Of a DNA stretch of 64,000 nt, positions 159-51,052 are shown one piece after another. The stretch lies in the NCBI GenBank assembly GCA_903885665.1, contig CAISJL010000185.1, forward strand, positions 1 through 64,000, given 5' to 3'. Under the pieces are notes generated by a model, which saw only the letters and a list, made by a program, of their open reading frames with translations, was not told where the DNA came from and searched no databases. The translations under genes were made by a program, and so were the position numbers. The stretch is from an uncultured beta proteobacterium (GTDB lineage: Bacteria > Pseudomonadota > Gammaproteobacteria > Burkholderiales > SG8-41). The stretch's first letter is position 1. The number at the start of each line of letters is the position of its first letter.

Positions 159-2543
159 TCAATCACTGACAATATTACCTGCCTTGGCAATTCGACTAAA
201 TTTCTCAACTTCAGAATCTACGAATGCTATTGCTGCTGCTGTTGTTGTGCTCGGCCAAACACCAAACCCATTCTTTTCAATTCTTTCTCTGACCTCTGCG
301 GTATCTAAGATCCGCCTGAGTGCTTGATTTAATTTGGCAATTACATCTTGCGGCGTACCTTTAGGCGCCATTAGCGAATTCCAATCATTGAAATCAAAAC
401 TACTGATTCCGGTTGACTGTAGTGTAGGTAGGTTAGATAGCGGAGTGCGCTCCAGCGATGTCACGGCAAGACCACGCAACTTACCAGATGCAATTAATGG
501 CGCTAAGGATGCAACACTAGCAAATATCATTGCTTGCTCACCATTTAATAAAGTGGCAATAGCTGGCGCTGTGCCTCTGAGTGGTACATGGCTGATCGAT
601 ATCCCGGCGATTAAACGAAACGACTCTCCAACAAAATGCGGTAAAGTTGCATTGCCTCCTGATGCATGAGTAAGCTTGCCGGGGTTTGCTTTTGCGTAAG
701 CAATCAATTCCCTAACGTCTTTTACTGGTAATGCTGTATTGATAGCCAGTATAAGGGGCGCCTTGGTTAACATCGAAACCGATGACATGTTTGGCACGAT
801 AACTCTTCGCATATTTAAATTAACACTAGCAACTGTTGCATACGACGTATTAGTAATCAGTAGTGTATGACCATCTGCAGCTGAGCGAGCAACCGCTTCA
901 GTTCCAATTACGGCTGCAGCACCTGCTTTATTTTCTATAATAAATGGCTGCCCTAATACACTGGATATGTTTTGTGCAATCACCCGACCGACTACGTCAG
1001 TAGTACCACCGGGCGGATACGGCACAATTATTTTGACAGGTTTAATCGGATAATTTGTCAAACCAATATGTGGCGACGTGGCAGACTGTGCTGTTGATGA
1101 TTGCACTTGCGTTGCCACCGCCTGAGCTTGCAAGCGGCTTACATGATTACGGGCTGAAGTATTGTTTTGGTCTGCTGCTAATTTATAGAGCCTCATTGCC
1201 TCAGCTGGATTCGCAATCAATCCACCTCGACCAGACTCATACATTAAGCCAAGGTTGGTTTGACCTAAGGCATTATTTTGCGCAGCAGATAACCGATAAA
1301 AGTATACCGCTTCTGCCTCATCTTTAACCAATCCACCCCGTCCATTTTCATACATAAAACCAAGAATAACTTGTGCTTGCGGATGATTTTTAGCGGCCGC
1401 TAATTTAATTAATCGAACGACCTCGACTTCATCTTTAACTACCCCACCGGTGCCATTCATATACATTAAACCAAGCCTGACTTGGGCATCCGTATCATTT
1501 TGCTCGTTGGCTAATCTATATAGCCGCAAGGTTTCAGGATTAGTCGGCAACAATGCATCAGGTTTTGTGGTTGTGTTAATTGCCAAAGGGTTAAACCGCG
1601 CAATATTTGCTTTAGCCAAGCTCACATAACGGCCTTTAGGGTAGCTTTCTAGATATGCCTCGTAAGCCTCTTTATTGCCTGCGGCTTTAGTGTCATCCCA
1701 GAACTTTTCTTCTTTCTGCTCTTCAGACAAGACGCGGGCTGCATACACTGGTGGGACGATTTGCACTGCGGTCGGGCCATAGAAGTAAAAGTTACCTCTA
1801 GCCTCATTATAGAGCGCAGGGCGTTGATCATGACGCACGGTTTTCGCAAGACTCTCTACTGCATCCTGAACGTCACGTACCAATTCTTCAATACGCATAC
1901 CGGGCTTACGCATTCTGGCAATAAATTCACGCGTAAACACGCCATTGGGATTGGTGTCGCGCTCGTGTAATCGATCTAGGGCCTGTTGGCCTTTGCTGGC
2001 CGAATATATAACCATCTGACCCTTGGCAGGTTCTACGGGACTTAATCCTCGATTTGCACCAATGCTCCGACCTTTAGTTCTCATCGGGTTGTCTCTGCAG
2101 GCATCGATGACGACCAATGCAAACCCCGCTTTGGCATCGCTCAGCTTTTCTGTGAGTTCGTTGAGCCCATACGCCATTTTTTCAATTTCACTCTCGCTTT
2201 CGGCTTCAATATCTATTGGTAGTATGTAATTGCCACTTTTAATCTGTACGCCGTGGCCTGCAAAAAACACTACAACGTCATCTCCACTTGCAATATTATT
2301 GGCAAACGATTCAATAGTTCTAACCATGGATCGGTAGTTCAAGTTCTTTTGCAACTGAACCACAAAGCCTGCTGCTTTAAGCTCGCGTGCCATAGCATCT
2401 GCATCATTCCCTGCTTTTTGGAGCTTGCTTACCGAGAGGTATTGATCATTACCCATGACTAATGCCACCCGCTTCGCATAGGCAATCGGTGCTGTTAATA
2501 GCACGGCAATTAGGCAGATCGCTATTTTTTTAACAACGTGCAT
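159..2543 (-). CDS. Secreted caspase-fold protein with Sel1 repeats and a C-terminal Bug (TctC-type) solute-binding domain
   Basis: One uninterrupted 794-residue frame holds four parts. A Sec signal peptide (about 1-23, ending AYA) is followed by a caspase p20-like domain (about 24-255) with the His97 (FAGHG) / Cys149 (VIDACRDNP) dyad of peptidase family C14. Residues about 270-315 hold the FW..AYL..YPKG motif that often follows such domains. Three Sel1-like repeats lie at about 340-460, each with a (M)Y.NG.GG signature. A complete Bug/TctC periplasmic binding domain runs from about 497 to 794 and starts with the family's YP.KPVKIIVPYPPGG motif. Caspase plus Sel1 is a known pairing; the Bug domain is the oddity. 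Bug proteins normally have their own signal peptide and bind small carboxylates or similar ligands. The signal peptide suggests a periplasmic location. A ligand-sensing protease or pseudo-protease scaffold is an inference. No tctA or tctB gene is in the window. Confidence 0.9.
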   Translation of the reverse strand: MHVVKKIAICLIAVLLTAPIAYAKRVALVMGNDQYLSVSKLQKAGNDADAMARELKAAGFVVQLQKNLNYRSMVRTIESFANNIASGDDVVVFFAGHGVQIKSGNYILPIDIEAESESEIEKMAYGLNELTEKLSDAKAGFALVVIDACRDNPMRTKGRSIGANRGLSPVEPAKGQMVIYSASKGQQALDRLHERDTNPNGVFTREFIARMRKPGMRIEELVRDVQDAVESLAKTVRHDQRPALYNEARGNFYFYGPTAVQIVPPVYAARVLSEEQKEEKFWDDTKAAGNKEAYEAYLESYPKGRYVSLAKANIARFNPLAINTTTKPDALLPTNPETLRLYRLANEQNDTDAQVRLGLMYMNGTGGVVKDEVEVVRLIKLAAAKNHPQAQVILGFMYENGRGGLVKDEAEAVYFYRLSAAQNNALGQTNLGLMYESGRGGLIANPAEAMRLYKLAADQNNTSARNHVSRLQAQAVATQVQSSTAQSATSPHIGLTNYPIKPVKIIVPYPPGGTTDVVGRVIAQNISSVLGQPFIIENKAGAAAVIGTEAVARSAADGHTLLITNTSYATVASVNLNMRRVIVPNMSSVSMLTKAPLILAINTALPVKDVRELIAYAKANPGKLTHASGGNATLPHFVGESFRLIAGISISHVPLRGTAPAIATLLNGEQAMIFASVASLAPLIASGKLRGLAVTSLERTPLSNLPTLQSTGISSFDFNDWNSLMAPKGTPQDVIAKLNQALRRILDTAEVRERIEKNGFGVWPSTTTAAAIAFVDSEVEKFSRIAKAGNIVSD

Positions 2544-4516: not shown

Positions 4517-5164
4517 CTAACTGCCTAAACTAAAAAATTCACGTGATCCACGCATGGCGTTGATCCGTTGCAATAACAAATCAAAATCGGTAGCCGAATC
4601 TACAAAATTCAAGTGATCGGAGTTCACAATCAATACGGGTGCTGCTGTGTAGTGATGAAAAAATTGTGCATAGGTATCTGCTAGTCGCTTCAAATAGTCG
4701 TCTGATATATTGTATTCATACGCTGTAGCGCGCCGCCGCACCCGCTCCACTAGTGTATCCGCACTGGCTTGTAAGTAAATCACCAAATCTGGCACTATAC
4801 TCTGCGGCTTTAAGTGTTGGTAAATTTGCCGATACAATGATAGCTCATCGTCCGTTAATGTAAGTTGTGCAAATAGCGGATCTTTCTCAAGCATAAAGTC
4901 TGCAACTGTCAGTCCACGAAACAAATCAGATTGCGCTAAGTCTTGCACTTGATGGCTGCGTTGAAATAAAAAAAACAACTGTACTTGTAATGCATAGCGC
5001 TTAGGGTCTTTATAAAACCCCGGCAAAAACGGATTGGAATCCGGGTCTTCAAACAAAGTGCTGGCATTCAAATGCGCTGCCAACCGTCGCGCGAGCGTGG
5101 TCTTGCCGGTACCAATGGGCCCCTCAACCACGACATATCGATACTTACTCGCCAACATCAACAC
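4517..5164 (-). CDS. Deoxynucleoside kinase (dNK family)
   Basis: This small cytoplasmic kinase phosphorylates deoxynucleosides for salvage. The P-loop GPIGTGKTT is at residues 15-23, the [11 protein letters not shown] segment resembles the E.P...P.L nucleoside-site motif, and a lid-type RVRRRA stretch occurs near residue 140. At 215 residues it is typical of bacterial deoxyadenosine/deoxyguanosine kinases. The exact nucleoside preference cannot be told from sequence. Its start overlaps the end of folK by 7 bp, which implies translational coupling. Placement between folK and panB is common in Burkholderiales. Confidence 0.9.
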
Positions 5165-5865
5165 ACCACCACTGGCGCTAACAAATGGGCATCCACAATA
5201 TCACCGCAACGCTGGACGCTATTTACATCCACAAAAGATAGCAAGTCCCTAACTTGACCATGCTCAGGTATCTGTAATTGTGCAGCAATCTCATGCAATG
5301 GCACCAAGACAAATGCCCGCTGCAGCATGCGCGGATGCGGTATCGTCAAGCCTGGCAACTCACATTGCGTATCGCCGTATACGAGCAAATCTAAATCCAG
5401 TGTGCGGGGCGCATTGGGAAAGTCACGTACCCGCCCCTGCTGGCGCTCAATCTCTAGCAACGCCGCTAACAAATCAGGGGCTGACATCTGTGTATCAATC
5501 AACGCCACTGCATTAAAAAAATCTGGTTGCGCGGTGTAGCCCACTGCAGCACTTTGATATAACCCAGAACTCGCTATCACTCGCGTGTGTGGCAACTGCA
5601 TTAGCGCTTGCACACCTCGCGCAATCTGCGCCGCAGGCTCACCAATATTGGCGCCCAAGGCAATAGCAGCGCGAGTCACTATCCCTGTATGGGACCAAGG
5701 CGCCTCTTCTGCCGCCTCCTTAGGCATTAGTGTTGCTATAGTGGCTGGGGTAATAGACAAAGGGGCAATAGATAAAGGGTTAATAGAAACAGGGGTAATA
5801 GAGGCAGCGCTAATAGATGGCGGGGTAGCAATCACCGAAGCTTTAGGCACTGGAACAGTCGGCAT
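5158..5865 (-). CDS. folK: 2-amino-4-hydroxy-6-hydroxymethyldihydropteridine pyrophosphokinase, with repeat-built N-terminal extension
   Basis: HPPK transfers pyrophosphate from ATP to the pterin precursor in folate synthesis. The core runs from about residue 63: TRAAIALGANIG, then PDFFNAVALIDT, and the RTLDLDLLVYGD metal/ATP motif. HPPKs normally start right before the ALG.N motif. Here about 62 extra residues precede it, mostly a degenerate five-residue repeat (SI.P.), encoded by 15-bp units. The ATG used here sits 3 bp beyond the pcnB stop. An in-frame GTG at 5679 would give the canonical short protein (TRAAIALG...), so which start is used is open. The enzyme identity is secure; the extension is the uncertain part. 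Confidence 0.93.
   Translation of the reverse strand: MPTVPVPKASVIATPPSISAASITPVSINPLSIAPLSITPATIATLMPKEAAEEAPWSHTGIVTRAAIALGANIGEPAAQIARGVQALMQLPHTRVIASSGLYQSAAVGYTAQPDFFNAVALIDTQMSAPDLLAALLEIERQQGRVRDFPNAPRTLDLDLLVYGDTQCELPGLTIPHPRMLQRAFVLVPLHEIAAQLQIPEHGQVRDLLSFVDVNSVQRCGDIVDAHLLAPVVVC
5737..5817. repeat. 15-bp degenerate tandem repeat inside folK
   Basis: The anchor AATAGA (plus strand) recurs at 5752, 5767, 5782, 5797 and 5812, exactly 15 bp apart, with a decayed copy at 5737. On the minus strand each unit reads Ser-Ile plus three variable residues. The unit length keeps the reading frame. Confidence 0.85.
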
Positions 5866-5868
5866 GGC

Positions 5869-7221
5869 CTAACCCTCGGCCACAATCGCAGCTGCAGCAG
5901 ATGCTGCAGGTTTACGCCGACGCCGACGCTTTTTATTCGGAGTCTTAGTCTCTGTCACTAGCATGGCTACCCGTGCATCTGTATCGGCCTCCTGAAAGGC
6001 TGTCCACCACTCGCCCAAGCTTGGGTCGAGCTCACCACTGTCACAACGCAGCAATAAAAAGTCATAACCTGCCCGAAACCTAGGGTGCTCGAGCAAACGA
6101 AACGGCCGCTGGCCACTGCGTTGCTCAAAACGCTGCTGCATTAACCATAAATCTTTCATGTCAGAAGTAAAGCGCCTAGGGATAGCAATACGCTTGGTCT
6201 GCTCCTGAATCACTCCATCCATGGCTTCGTGCAGCGCGGGAATGCTGGGGACACCACGCGCTTGAATGGCCTGCCAGCGACTACGCACTTCGTGCCAGGT
6301 CAGGGTGGCAAACAAAAACGCGGGCGATACCGTCTTGCCAACGCGCACACGCTGATCAGTATTTTTAAGGGCTTGCATCACAAAACGCTCGCCGCTGTCT
6401 TGTCCCAAGATTGCATCTAAAAATGGTAATAAATCTTGATGCAGTTTTTCTTGTCGCAAGCGCTGAATACAATCTACCGCATGTCCTGATAGGAGTAACT
6501 TCAATAACTCATCAAACAGACGTGCGCTAGGCACATGGTTTAATAAGGTAGCTAGCGATTGAATCGGTCGCCGCGTACTCGCTTCGATGTCTAAATCACA
6601 GCTGGCGCTAAATCGTACCGCGCGCAACATACGCACCGGATCTTCACGATAACGTTGCACCGGCTCTCCAATCATGCGCAGGCGTTTATGCCCAAGATCA
6701 GCAACACCACCGTGGTAATCCCAAACCTGTTCTTTAGCTGGGTCGTAGAATAAAGCATTAATTGTAAAATCGCGTCGCGTTGCATCCTGCGCCTGATCGC
6801 CCCACACGTTGTCCCGCAACAAGCGTCCATGCTCGTCCTCGACTTGAGTGTTTGAATCGGCTTCGGTCGCAGGACCTCGAAAGGTCGACACCTCGACCAG
6901 CTCGCGCCCGCACATCACATGCACAATCCGAAAGCGCCTGCCGATGATTCGGGAGCGGCGAAAAATGTCACGCACTTCTTCTGGCTTGGCGTTGGTGGCC
7001 ACATCAAAATCTTTGGGTGCTCGGCCCAAGATTAAGTCGCGCACCGCCCCGCCCACCACAAAAGCGCTAAAGCCTGCTTCCTGCAGACCATCACAGACGC
7101 GTAGGGCACAACTTCCAATCTGTTCACGGCGAATACCGTGCGCAGCCAGCGCAATAATCCGGGGTTTTGCGGACTTGAACATCCGCGCTTTAAAGACGCG
7201 ACCAAGCAGTTTGGTTATCAT
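5869..7221 (-). CDS. pcnB: Poly(A) polymerase I
   Basis: PcnB adds 3' poly(A) tails that promote RNA decay. The nucleotidyltransferase head is clear: FVVGGAVRDLILGR (about 54-67) followed by the DFDVAT metal site (71-76), then RRDFTINAL and the REDPVRMLRAVRF tRNA-nucleotidyltransferase-type motif. The C-terminus is strongly basic (KKRRRRRRKP), as in other PcnB proteins, for RNA binding. The order pcnB-folK-dNK-panB-panC is a recurrent betaproteobacterial arrangement. CCA-adding enzyme is the alternative, but the basic tail and the neighbourhood favour pcnB. Confidence 0.95.
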   Translation of the reverse strand: MITKLLGRVFKARMFKSAKPRIIALAAHGIRREQIGSCALRVCDGLQEAGFSAFVVGGAVRDLILGRAPKDFDVATNAKPEEVRDIFRRSRIIGRRFRIVHVMCGRELVEVSTFRGPATEADSNTQVEDEHGRLLRDNVWGDQAQDATRRDFTINALFYDPAKEQVWDYHGGVADLGHKRLRMIGEPVQRYREDPVRMLRAVRFSASCDLDIEASTRRPIQSLATLLNHVPSARLFDELLKLLLSGHAVDCIQRLRQEKLHQDLLPFLDAILGQDSGERFVMQALKNTDQRVRVGKTVSPAFLFATLTWHEVRSRWQAIQARGVPSIPALHEAMDGVIQEQTKRIAIPRRFTSDMKDLWLMQQRFEQRSGQRPFRLLEHPRFRAGYDFLLLRCDSGELDPSLGEWWTAFQEADTDARVAMLVTETKTPNKKRRRRRKPAASAAAAIVAEG

Positions 7222-7428
7222 TCAATAATTCAATAGGGTAGAAATAAGCAAGCCTTTATGGGCTAACACGGGTATAGGCGTCATCCACAATCCGTTTAGG
7301 AAACACGCCACAATCGTCACGACTCAGCAAAGCACTTTGCCCATGAGCTCGACTCGGGCCGGCAGTATGATCGCTCCATAAATACACTGCATCACAAGCT
7401 CAGGCTGCGCAATTATACATCTGCGAGT

Positions 7429-8088
7429 CTAGTTACCTAGACTCATCACCGGCCAACCTTGCGCCATGGCGTGCTGTCGCAAAGTTTCATCGGGGTCTAC
7501 CGCAACCGGATGCGTCACCGCCTGCAATAATGGCAAATCATTCCGTGAATCACTATAAAACGTTGATTTTTCAACTGTTTTTAAACTTGCGCCACGTTCT
7601 GCCAGCCACGCTTCGAGTCGTTCAATCTTACCGGCCTGAAAACACGGCGTGCCGCTCACACCGCCAGTGAACTGGCCAGCGCGCTCCTCGGGGTCAGTGG
7701 CAATTAAATACTCAATGCCAAAGGCCGCCGCAATCGGCGCCGTCACAAATCGATTCGTAGCAGTAATAATCACCCGCACTTCGCCCTGATGCTGCGCCAC
7801 CAAAGCGCGCGCCGAGTCACGAATCATTGGTTGAATGCGTTCGGTCATAAATTGACGATGCCACGCATCGAGTACGTGGCGCGGGTAACGCGCTAAGGGG
7901 CGCAGTTGAAAGTCTAGAAATTCAAAAATATTGAGAGTACCGGCTTTATATTGCTCATAGAACTCGAGGTTTCGCGACTCATAAGCGGCACGCTCTAATA
8001 CGCCTTGGTCGATTAAGAATTGCGCCCACTCAAAATCACTATCTCCAGCCAACAACGTGTTATCCAGATCAAACAAGGCTAATTTCAT
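7429..8088 (-). CDS. HAD-IB family phosphatase (SerB-like)
   Basis: The protein starts MKLALFDLDNTLL, whose DLDNT is the HAD nucleophile motif. An upstream in-frame start would add ten residues before this motif, so I chose the later ATG. Further motifs are the Thr in ITATNRF and the C-terminal YSDSRNDLPLL (motif IV). About 219 residues is typical of subclass IB phosphatases resembling phosphoserine phosphatase. The substrate is not predictable. It lies between pcnB and hda, as in many Burkholderiales. The 207-bp gap to pcnB holds nothing secure. Confidence 0.88.
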   Translation of the reverse strand: MKLALFDLDNTLLAGDSDFEWAQFLIDQGVLERAAYESRNLEFYEQYKAGTLNIFEFLDFQLRPLARYPRHVLDAWHRQFMTERIQPMIRDSARALVAQHQGEVRVIITATNRFVTAPIAAAFGIEYLIATDPEERAGQFTGGVSGTPCFQAGKIERLEAWLAERGASLKTVEKSTFYSDSRNDLPLLQAVTHPVAVDPDETLRQHAMAQGWPVMSLGN

Positions 8089-8217
8089 GGTTATATTGCT
8101 ACGCCTAGGCTGCAGCATCCTTTTCAGTCAATTAATTTAACTTATTGATTTAAAACAGTATTTAAAAAATGAGATGAGGTCCGAATATAAAAACTCTTGC
8201 AATAAAAATGCATACCA

Positions 8218-8889
8218 TTAAATCGAGCGCAGCAAGGTTCGCACTAGCGGCACGGTGATAGCGCGGCGCTGCGCCAAGGACAAGCGATCTAGACGATCGA
8301 CCATCAAGCGTAAGGCGTTTAAATCGCGAGGTGTGCGCAATAGTAAGTACGCCAGCACCTCGGGCGACAAGGTTAGGCCTCGCGCCTGCGCATACTCTAC
8401 AACGGCTGATTGGCGGTCAGCCTCATTGAGCCAACGCACTTCGTAGACCAAGCCCCAAGCCAGGCGGGTTAAGACATCTGGGCGTACACTCAGGCTGGCT
8501 GGAGGGACGCCACCAGTGACTAACATGAAGCCCGAGGAATCTCTTAACTTATTGAAAATATTGAATAATTCTATTTGATCTTGGTCCGACATGGACTCTA
8601 CGTCATCTACACACACCGCCGCACCATCAGAAACTAACGCAGCCTTCGGCGGGGACTCAGCGCCAAAGCAATGGACGCTACGACCAGCACTTTGCCAAGC
8701 CTGCGCTAGTGCAGCTAACAAATGCGTGCGACCGCTACCGAAGCCACCCCATAAATAAACAAAGTGCTCAGTAGCTGTACCTGACGCTAAAGCCATCAGG
8801 GTCGCCATTAATTCAGCGTTATCACCGACCACAAAATTATCCAGTGTCGGTTGCGGCGAATGCGCAAGCTCTAATACCAATTGCTGCAT
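8218..8889 (-). CDS. hda: DnaA regulatory inactivator Hda
   Basis: Hda works with the DNA-loaded beta clamp to stimulate ATP hydrolysis by DnaA and so prevent re-initiation of replication. It opens MQQLVLEL, matching the QL.L.L clamp-binding type of N-terminus. It has a P-loop-like GGFGSGRTHLL and a Walker B-like VCVDDVE, followed by a AAA+ C-terminal lid with DLNALR. At 223 residues it is a DnaA-domain-only protein, too short for DnaA itself. The neighbouring AI-2E transporter and purM agree with the usual hda context. Confidence 0.93.
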   Translation of the reverse strand: MQQLVLELAHSPQPTLDNFVVGDNAELMATLMALASGTATEHFVYLWGGFGSGRTHLLAALAQAWQSAGRSVHCFGAESPPKAALVSDGAAVCVDDVESMSDQDQIELFNIFNKLRDSSGFMLVTGGVPPASLSVRPDVLTRLAWGLVYEVRWLNEADRQSAVVEYAQARGLTLSPEVLAYLLLRTPRDLNALRLMVDRLDRLSLAQRRAITVPLVRTLLRSI

Positions 8890-8939
8890 TAAATCACTCT
8901 GCCCACTTTAGCAATTGCGCACCACTGTTCACTGCTGCA

Positions 8940-9998
8940 TTAATCACGGTATAAGGTACTCTCTAAGTATTGGTGGCCAATATGCTGACCCCACACCCAC
9001 AATGCAGCGCTTGCGGGCAAGGCCAACAACACGCCAAAAAATCCAAACACGCTCCCAAACGCCAACAAGGCAAACATCACTGCCACTGGATGCAACCCAA
9101 TCCGATCACCCACCAACCACGGCACCAATATCGAACCTTCTAACACATTAGCGACAACGAACACGCCCCACACCCAAAACAATTGCGTCCATTCTGGAAA
9201 CTGTAAAAAACCTGTCAGCGTAGCCAATACCACACCAATAATAACGCCCAAATAAGGCACAAACGTGACCAAACCTGCAATCATGCCTACAGACAGCGCA
9301 TAGTCTAGACCAGCGAACCATAAACCAACGCTATAGAACATCGCCATCGCCAACATCACTAATAACTGCCCACGCAAAAACTCACCCAATACCATGTCAA
9401 TTTCGAGACTGATGGTGCGCGCCGCTGCATGCCAGCGCCTAGGGATCAATCGCTCAACACTAGCAACCAAGGTTACCCAGTCACGCAAAAAATAAAACAA
9501 TAAAACAGGCACCAACACCAGCACGCTAAGCAGCTCAAAGATCGCCAAGCCACCAGTTTTAATACTTGGCAAGACTTTTAACAATACATCGCGAATTTCA
9601 TCACTGTGAGAGACGGTCCAGTCACGCAACACCACAGTCTCTACATTCCAACCAAAATAATGCTGCAACAAGGGCGATACCACGGTATGCAGCCAAGTCG
9701 CTAGCTGTGGCAGCTGACCGGCAATACCTTTGACTTGACGTATCAACAAAGGCAGCACCACCAACAATAGAACAACGAATAAAAACACCAACAAGATCAG
9801 CACCAAAGTTGCGGCAAACGCCCGCGGTAAACGATAGCGCGTCATCATGACTACTAATGGATTACAGATGTAAGCCAGAATTGCTGCTAATAAAAAAGGC
9901 ATCAGAATTGAACTCAGGCCGTATAACACACCGCCAGCCACCAAAACCAGCAATATCCACAGCCCAATCTGTTGCACAGTGCGTTTTGTAGGGTCCAT
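8940..9998 (-). CDS. AI-2E family transporter (PerM/YdgG-like membrane protein)
   Basis: This inner-membrane protein of 352 residues has about seven to eight hydrophobic segments. Its N-terminus is QQIGLWILLVLVAGGVLYG. The family's C-terminal half includes VGMIAGLVTFVPYLGVIIG and the ending FGFFGVLLALPASAALWV. The family exports or exchanges varied small molecules and ions; the cargo cannot be predicted here. It is divergently arranged with purM across a 102-bp gap, which is a conserved feature of this locus. Confidence 0.9.
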   Translation of the reverse strand: MDPTKRTVQQIGLWILLVLVAGGVLYGLSSILMPFLLAAILAYICNPLVVMMTRYRLPRAFAATLVLILLVFLFVVLLLVVLPLLIRQVKGIAGQLPQLATWLHTVVSPLLQHYFGWNVETVVLRDWTVSHSDEIRDVLLKVLPSIKTGGLAIFELLSVLVLVPVLLFYFLRDWVTLVASVERLIPRRWHAAARTISLEIDMVLGEFLRGQLLVMLAMAMFYSVGLWFAGLDYALSVGMIAGLVTFVPYLGVIIGVVLATLTGFLQFPEWTQLFWVWGVFVVANVLEGSILVPWLVGDRIGLHPVAVMFALLAFGSVFGFFGVLLALPASAALWVWGQHIGHQYLESTLYRD

Positions 9999-50053: not shown

Positions 50054-51052
50054 TTAATCAATTTTGATATTAGCCGCTTTGATCACTTCTTTCCATTTAG
50101 TCATTTCAGACTTCATATACTGGGTCAAGACCTCGGGACTGCTACCAATCGCATCGATCCCATTCTGACTCAAAAAACTACTGACACTGGTATCAGTCAG
50201 CGTTTTCTTCAGCTCACTGTTCAGGCGTCCGACAATCGCACTTGGTGTGCCTTTGGGCGTGAGCAAGCCATACCAAACCCCTGAGTCGTAACCCTTCAGT
50301 CCAGACTCGGCCACCGTTGGAATATCTGGAAAACTCAGCACCCGCTTACTTGTGCTTACCGCAATCCCGCGCACCCGCCCAGAGCGTAAGTGGCCGCCAG
50401 CCGCCACCGGGGTGGCAAACAACAGTTGCGCTTGTCCTGAGATGGTGTCCACCAAGGCTGGGCCGCCGCCTTTGTAGGGCACATGCACGAGTTTTATACC
50501 GGTCATGGTCTTCATTAACTCCGTGGCCAAGTGCGCACCCGAACCATTACCAGAGGATGCGTATAAAATTTGATTGGGCCGCTTAGTGGCAATGTCCACT
50601 AAATCTTTTATGGTTTTGATGGGTAGCGAAGGATGCGCCACCAATAAATACGCACCATTGGCAATCAGTGAGATGGGCTCAAAATCAGCAACCGGGTCAT
50701 AGCCAGTGTTTTTAAATAGGCTTTGATTGACTGCGAGTTGCGCAGTAAGCCCCATGACCAAGGTATAGCCATCCGGGGCAGAACGCGCGGCAAATTCCAT
50801 CCCAATATTGCCGCCTGCACCGCCGCGATTGTCGATCACCACCGACTGCCCGAGCAGGTCAGACATTTTTTTAGCAATGGGTCTGCCAATGGTGTCGCCA
50901 CCACCGCCTGGTGGATAAGGCATGACAATCCGAATCCCTCGGTTTGGATAACTGTCGGCAGCAACACTCACCCCAATCCCACTGAAAGTGAGCACTAAAC
51001 TGCAAAGTGCGCACACCAACAACTTCTGCACCATCGGTAATAAGCAACGCAT
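50054..51052 (-). CDS. Bug (TctC) family tripartite tricarboxylate-type solute-binding protein
   Basis: Starting at the ATG just after the bicupin stop (TAAGATG), the protein has a signal peptide (MRCLLPMVQKLLVCALCSLVL...VAA). It then has the Bug fold: YPNRGIRIVMPYPPGGGGDT, SAPDGYTLVMG, PNQILYASSGNGSGAHLATE, HVPYKGGGPALVD and the C-terminal MTKWKEVIKAANIKID. About 332 residues, complete. Bug proteins bind carboxylates, amino acids or aromatic acids in the periplasm. There is no TctA/TctB here, as is usual for orphan Bugs. Tight coupling with the bicupin gene suggests its ligand is related to that enzyme's substrate. Confidence 0.92.
   Translation of the reverse strand: MRCLLPMVQKLLVCALCSLVLTFSGIGVSVAADSYPNRGIRIVMPYPPGGGGDTIGRPIAKKMSDLLGQSVVIDNRGGAGGNIGMEFAARSAPDGYTLVMGLTAQLAVNQSLFKNTGYDPVADFEPISLIANGAYLLVAHPSLPIKTIKDLVDIATKRPNQILYASSGNGSGAHLATELMKTMTGIKLVHVPYKGGGPALVDTISGQAQLLFATPVAAGGHLRSGRVRGIAVSTSKRVLSFPDIPTVAESGLKGYDSGVWYGLLTPKGTPSAIVGRLNSELKKTLTDTSVSSFLSQNGIDAIGSSPEVLTQYMKSEMTKWKEVIKAANIKID

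Follow-up and report, generated by a model that had tools for sequence, protein, structure and literature searches.

A single gene in a beta-proteobacterial genome joins a caspase domain, Sel1 repeats and a complete Bug/TctC receptor domain

A single reading frame at one end of a Burkholderiales contig encodes one chain that starts with a leader and a caspase domain, continues through a linker into three Sel1 repeats and finishes with a complete Bug/TctC solute-receptor domain. The gene occupies positions 2543..159 (minus strand) of the window, the 64,000-nucleotide stretch that we analysed (C185:1-64000), and runs for 794 codons from ATG to TGA with no internal stop, just as the initial annotation had described it (a single uninterrupted frame of 794 residues); 158 bases separate its end from the end of the contig. 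The pairing of a caspase with a Bug receptor appears to be new, the broader architecture of a caspase joined to a ligand-binding domain is known, and the fusion is present in one genome. Two open questions meet in this gene, namely the role of the many orphan Bug receptors of beta-proteobacteria and the identity of the signals to which bacterial caspases respond, and a covalent caspase-Bug chain would make both addressable with one purified protein. The finding is of interest because it bears on the orphan-receptor question and is limited by being a single, unverified instance: we regard it as a promising lone case, in which a fusion joins two intact-looking halves.

The leader (residues 1-23; 2475..2543, minus strand, as for all parts of the gene) contains the hydrophobic stretch IAICLIAVLLTAPIA from residue 7 onwards and the strongest hydrophobic 15-mer of the chain (hydropathy of 2.73 at residue 7), in agreement with the signal peptide claimed earlier, the cleavage point being a presumed one. 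Behind it lies the caspase (Peptidase C14) domain, residues 24-255 (1779..2474), which matches Pfam PF00656 over residues 24-253 with 110.3 bits against a cut-off of 21.4. The catalytic His97 (2253..2255, within an AGHGV motif) and Cys149 (2097..2099, within DACRDNP) both stand in columns that are invariant across an alignment of 57 caspase frames, our own included, so the dyad reported in the initial annotation is intact; the only other cysteine in the whole chain is Cys10 of the leader. The caspase half may be capable of proteolysis. The 57 frames (alignment A1) come from a set of 64 caspase-like frames; the seven others were a duplicate of the G091 gene, the second frame of Comamonas L012, two truncated pieces adjacent to listed genes, two pieces of L139 and a frame present a second time through an overlapping locus. 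Against the model for EACC1-associated caspases (NF047832) the window protein scored 58.6 bits, under the curated cut-off of 140.

The front of the protein has relatives well beyond its own genome, and their tails differ. Five of the 21 genomes of the genus match it at E values up to 0.001 (own genome included; mates 29-36% identical), and 32 of the 74 genomes of the family have a match, the best being G091 with 59% identity. The G091 caspase has a similar linker, the similar segment being the part of our linker (residues 256-335; 1539..1778) that ends in AYEAYLESYPKGRY (translations compared), followed by a tail in which Pfam recognises no domain; its neighbours are an OmpA gene and one for a caspase-DUF4384 protein. 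The nearest caspase domains are those of Comamonas sp. lk (L012, L013), with a front identity of 57-58% by tblastn and 71-72% in the blastp core; where our protein has Sel1 repeats and a Bug domain, these carry an FGE-sulfatase domain. In the tree the window caspase groups with the Comamonas pair (100/74) and then with G091 (100/99). Among the 57 frames, Pfam found FGE-sulfatase in 12, CHAT in nine (best E value 9.5e-6), Sel1 in five and TctC in one, the window protein. The idea that the C-terminal part can be swapped draws its main support from this common front with three different tails (Sel1-Bug, FGE-sulfatase and no known domain), and the window caspase is best read as a putatively exported member of a Burkholderiales-type group whose caspases carry exchangeable tails.

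The Sel1 repeats span residues 336-462 (1158..1538) and score 76.9 bits against a cut-off of 30.7 for Pfam PF08238, with the best stretch at 426-461; Pfam delimits three stretches at E values up to 1 and two at up to 0.001. Motifs of the LGxMYxxGxGG type start at residues 353, 390 and 427 with a spacing of 37 (the middle one reads LGFMY), in keeping with the three repeats noted before. The structure model adds a further helical hairpin at 446-489. The last helix of the stack (462-489 in the model) and a short link make up residues 463-496 (1056..1157). This border contains no second leader: all 15-mers starting at residues 456-498 have a hydropathy of at most 0.89.

The Bug/TctC domain, residues 497-794 (162..1055), matches PF03401 over residues 519-788 with 201.7 bits against a cut-off of 27 and covers profile positions 2-271 of 274, which, together with the Bug27 fold of its model, bears out the claim of a full-length domain. 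Free Bug receptors are made as separate proteins, each with a leader; ours forms the end of a 794-residue chain and is classed as no more than a domain relative of them. At the first ligand loop the sequence PYPPGGTTD (residues 508-516; 996..1022) retains the P, the GG and the D of the motif P-F-x-A-G-G-x-x-D, as given in the available text of PMC5812351, but replaces its Phe and Ala by Tyr and Pro; 10 of 50 Bug representatives likewise have Tyr at position 509. The second loop reads VPLRG against VPYxG, a consensus that is our own reading of the alignments and has no published definition. At residue 655 the aligned sequences have Tyr in 114 of 121 cases, Phe in seven and Leu in none, and Arg656 aligns with the residue changed in the terephthalate receptor mutant K184D. 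Because Leu655 occupies a near-invariant column and Arg656 the K184D position, the pocket of the fusion may bind a ligand different from the usual one. In the 66 columns on which at least 70% of the 50 representatives agree, the Bug part matches the consensus at 0.77; the representatives themselves, whose loci were found with the window protein as query so that similar ones are favoured, average 0.83 (range 0.68-0.94), and 13 of the 50 fall below the fusion's Bug part. Three Pfam families above their cut-offs, a retained dyad and a Bug part within the conservation range of its family thus support the intactness of the fusion.

Bug genes are numerous in this lineage. Another TctC/Bug gene lies in the same window (50069-50887), and the own genome (G000) yielded 150 scored TctC/Bug matches from 237 candidates in 3.03 Mb. 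Two family mates, G021 and G025, returned 988 and 1008 first-look candidates to the full chain in 5.7 and 6.4 Mb (16 scored in each), counts that may include caspase and Sel1 matches; if most of them are Bug genes, they would top the 434 listed for Rhodoplanes in Table 3 of PMC5812351.

A structure prediction, which the initial annotation had proposed as a check, recovered all three folds (caspase, Sel1 and Bug) within a single model. AlphaFold2 was given 35 rows, consisting of the window protein and caspase and Bug relatives from the genome_contigs loci; an earlier alignment (A2) was dropped since the Sel1 parts of other caspases fell on Bug columns, and its successor with trimmed rows (A3) fed the model. 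Overall the mean pLDDT was 79.6 and the pTM 0.47. By ten-residue blocks, pLDDT ranged from 69 to 92 at residues 21-150 of the caspase domain and from 34 to 75 at 151-260, from 81 to 97 in the linker helices (87-97 for the blocks 271-310), from 60 to 79 in the Sel1 repeats, and was mostly above 90 in the Bug part. Residues 499-794 superimpose on Bug27 (2qpq; VIA Z 40.6, with an rmsd of 1.7 across 294 residues) and also match terephthalate receptors (Foldseek, VIA-align), residues 22-258 match the MALT1 paracaspase (7ak1; VIA Z 19.5 over 185 residues), and residues 334-470 match a Sel1 protein (6orc; VIA Z 15.7 over 134 residues). In the model the folds are clear and the relative placement of the domains is uncertain; pLDDT drops below 50 at residues 486-494, and the link between Sel1 and Bug parts looks flexible.

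The initial annotation took absence from relatives as counting against the fusion, and absence from relatives is what every search returned. Among the matches listed by a full-chain search, the fusion was confined to the own genome within a set of 61 genomes including its own, with 16 candidates scored for most genomes. It was likewise found in the own genome only among 399 genomes of the order (E up to 1e-74) and 369 of the class (E up to 1e-70), own genome included in both, with no more than two candidates scored per genome. No frame of at least 200 residues combined a caspase with a Bug domain in 79 genome_contigs loci, which were kept from 123 relatives found by six short peptide patterns. 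Coverage of 80% was reached in none of 1214 matching plasmid records, 13 of which were judged on the matches listed, the fusion was seen in none of six phages, and none of nine stretches from Viral_contigs was confirmed. A local profile search whose control passed detected no Bug domain in 127 caspase frames from 106 loci, some of these genes counted twice through overlapping loci and the 3' end lying inside the locus for 113 of the 127 (L116 and L118 excluded as duplicates); its caspase profile was built from rows that included the window protein, its Bug profile was not. None of 122 Bug frames shows similarity to caspases or Sel1. The search filters are coarse, and a fusion with weaker similarity could escape them.

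Two loci (L014, L015) in which long match ranges had raised the suspicion of a fusion proved to hold neighbouring Bug genes. The fusion might have arisen from a caspase gene directly followed by a Bug gene, but this idea was rejected: among 18 close pairs (less than 400 bases apart, some overlapping), drawn from the 36 Bug frames in caspase loci, the Bug gene lay behind the caspase on the same strand once. This pair (L234:822-3517, in G072) has its Bug frame 30 bases behind the caspase frame, unfused. Bug density in caspase loci is 0.073 per kb, for which we claim no enrichment.

Each half resembles known proteins. Bacterial PF00656 caspase homologues (metacaspases or orthocaspases) with Sel1 repeats likewise have a His/Cys dyad and a possible leader, and the survey in the available text of PMC3501461 counted Sel1 in 40 prokaryotic metacaspases, or 6.0%. 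For orthocaspases, Arg/Lys substrates have been reported (PMC6426788). The Sel1-bearing homologues differ in the tail: TctC occurs in none of the 56 other caspase frames that we scanned, and that portion of PMC3501461 mentions none. As far as the accessible parts of the respective papers go, caspases have been joined to ANF_receptor or CHASE2 domains (PMC3501461) and in one case to PBP_like_2 (PMC4933709), the hosts being cyanobacterial where named, and cyanobacterial orthocaspase domains precede variable, ligand-binding C-type-lectin domains (PMC7517822, whose autoinhibition hypothesis was made for kinases). With CHASE2, PBP_like_2 and lectin domains the caspase comes first, as it does here; the receptor families are others, and none in these excerpts is TctC/Bug. 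The free Bug/TctC receptors (BugD, BugE, Bug27, TphC and the terephthalate-binding protein) share the fold and the first ligand-loop signature with our protein, but they are exported on their own, at about 300 residues each, whereas ours is attached to the end of a protease. According to the sections available of PMC5812351, the shells of Bug proteins are estimated to close by 24.7 degrees on the ligand, whose carboxylate is held by two loops, and the authors suggest that Bugs have a part in signalling, as opposed to transport. Among the papers listed, the open-licence PMC literature yielded no chain of a caspase or metacaspase with TctC (PF03401, tripartite tricarboxylate), in line with the earlier remark that the combination was an unfamiliar one.

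The explanation that we tentatively put first, at somewhat less than even confidence, is a natural gene fusion in which the exchangeable tail of a presumably exported caspase became a Sel1-Bug tail, through which a small carboxylate would gate or place the protease. The leader, caspase and linker front would have been kept, and the part behind it replaced by a short Sel1 stack bearing a whole Bug receptor; the absence of the Bug receptor's own leader is as expected of a working fusion. The product would be exported to the periplasm, where the Bug clam-shell could bind a small carboxylate-type molecule, and closure of the shell, relayed or scaffolded by the Sel1 stack, might turn the caspase on or off or set the place where it cuts. 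That the Bug part senses a ligand and controls or localises the protease is, as in the initial annotation, a proposal. Several points count against this explanation: the fusion occurs in one genome among those searched, the model places the domains uncertainly and renders the second half of the caspase domain poorly, the Sel1-Bug link looks flexible, there is no evident partner gene next to it, Leu655 deviates from its column, and the GC3 step described below would suit a joint of recent date. By analogy with the caspases joined to other ligand-binding domains, gating of the protease by its receptor tail would be the most likely use, and a tether the next. The full version, a ligand-gated exported caspase with a Bug receptor wired directly to the protease, is doubtful as yet. 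If true, it would be direct evidence that orphan Bug receptors, of which there are hundreds in this lineage, can serve as periplasmic signalling inputs, and that small carboxylates outside the cell can act as a switch for bacterial caspases.

A chance event could also have made the gene, with a rearrangement in a variable chromosomal spot joining a Bug gene to a caspase-Sel1 gene to no joint purpose, and its surroundings lend some weight to this. In the genus mates G011, G014 and G019, panB and panC are followed by a variable gene, tRNA-Leu(CAA), queA and tgt (translations read), and the tRNA is present in four of five mate stretches, the fifth (G002) being cut by a contig end. In the own genome the caspase-Bug gene comes next after panC, and behind it the contig ends; queA lies at the start of another contig, C131, preceded by a 5' piece of tRNA-Leu (identified by eye), an integrase (Pfam Phage_integrase, 21.7 bits, E value 1.9e-4, under the cut-off of 27.1) and a whole tRNA-Leu(CAA). 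The panC-queA interval differs between the mates read and, in this genome, contains an integrase and what looks by eye like a broken tRNA-Leu, so the caspase-Bug gene sits in a variable, probably rearranged interval. The GC3 step within the gene, from 0.445 at residues 1-335 to about 0.33 in the Sel1 and Bug parts (Fisher p 0.0024), fits a young joint; the abundance of Bug genes in the genome and the occurrence of the fusion in one genome only, among the sets searched, also suit a chance event. Yet motifs are kept in both halves, the Bug half is free of decay, the receptor's lost leader is what a working fusion would have, and identity to the closest Bug matches reaches 43-44% (38% within the own genome), so that no young donor is seen. 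We consider a functionless fusion rather unlikely.

The region beside queA on C131 (L213:252-1735 of G000), with its integrase and tRNA-Leu pieces where genus mates have one tRNA-Leu, is probably an integrative element.

As a rival to gating, the Bug part might serve as an address tag or substrate catcher, keeping the caspase close to ligands or to a partner in the membrane (a sensor or a TctA/TctB-like protein), with the Sel1 repeats recruiting the protein to be cleaved. The low pLDDT of the link and the low pTM of the model speak more for a tether than for tight allosteric coupling, and the text available of PMC3501461 lists Sel1 and TPR, both common in bacterial metacaspases, as domains for protein interaction. 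We hold this reading to be unlikely, and the adjacent genes weigh against it: read from their translations, the adjacent genes include no TctA- or TctB-like gene of a tripartite tricarboxylate transporter system, as the remark on a missing neighbouring transporter had it. We take these adjacent genes to be panC, panB, a nucleoside-kinase-like gene, folK and pcnB, and there is no evident partner gene beside the caspase-Bug gene.

An assembly joint, in which the contig wrongly links a caspase-Sel1 gene to a Bug gene, had to be weighed because the own genome is MAG-like (187 contigs, 3.09% contamination), the gene ends close to the contig end, and the fusion is unseen elsewhere in the sets searched. 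The GC3 step might be read in the same way, since none of the other 44 long frames of the window (0.384-0.623) is as low as the Sel1-Bug part. However, the Sel1 and Bug parts, whose border is the suspected joint, are alike in GC3 (p 0.91) and within the range of eight Bug genes of the own genome (0.281-0.581). This border lies about 1.05 kb inside the contig, the frame is kept across it with no Bug leader, and, contrary to what an assembly or sequencing fault between residues 470 and 500 would produce, there is no frameshift or stop in that segment. No second copy of either half was seen in the own genome among the candidates scored (14 of 37), where matches are pieces of up to 155 bases, and hence no repeat that would offer a joint. 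The open frame and the lack of a second copy among these 14 candidates leave the idea of an assembly joint unsupported; such an error is possible, and we judge it unlikely. As proof of chimerism the GC3 break was set aside, since one of the four other window frames of at least 500 codons splits harder (z 4.22 against 3.44).

Least probable of all is that the neighbouring integrative element carries a defence or conflict system with this protein as its effector, for which there is a match to the PADLOC caspase model (46.7 bits, E value 6.5e-13, about 150 of 453 positions) and the integrase near queA, on the far side of the contig gap, but the protein has a leader sequence, no evident defence partner adjoins the gene, and neither the window (ARAGORN) nor the stretch between panC and the gene (by eye) contains a tRNA or a piece of one, so that there is no sign that the gene lies inside that element.

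Upstream of the gene, the repeat mentioned in the initial annotation is present as three imperfect 9-base steps at 2651-2686 and is a minor feature; a scan for promoters and terminators was unremarkable, with three promoter-like sites against 5.9 in shuffled sequences and three terminator-like sites against 2.7. Elsewhere in the own genome (L215:3911-9550, G000:C181), a caspase of 597 residues, a small secreted-looking protein, a zinc-ribbon membrane protein, a caspase-DUF4384 protein and an OmpA-like protein are encoded in a cluster, and OmpA was found in 14 metacaspase operons in the portion available of PMC3501461. The same kinds of genes are grouped in Comamonas L012 and, in part, in G091 (L214). 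In Comamonas sp. lk, L012:1834-9110 holds two caspase-FGE-sulfatase genes side by side, the second of them in two frames (4983-5357 and 5433-9110).
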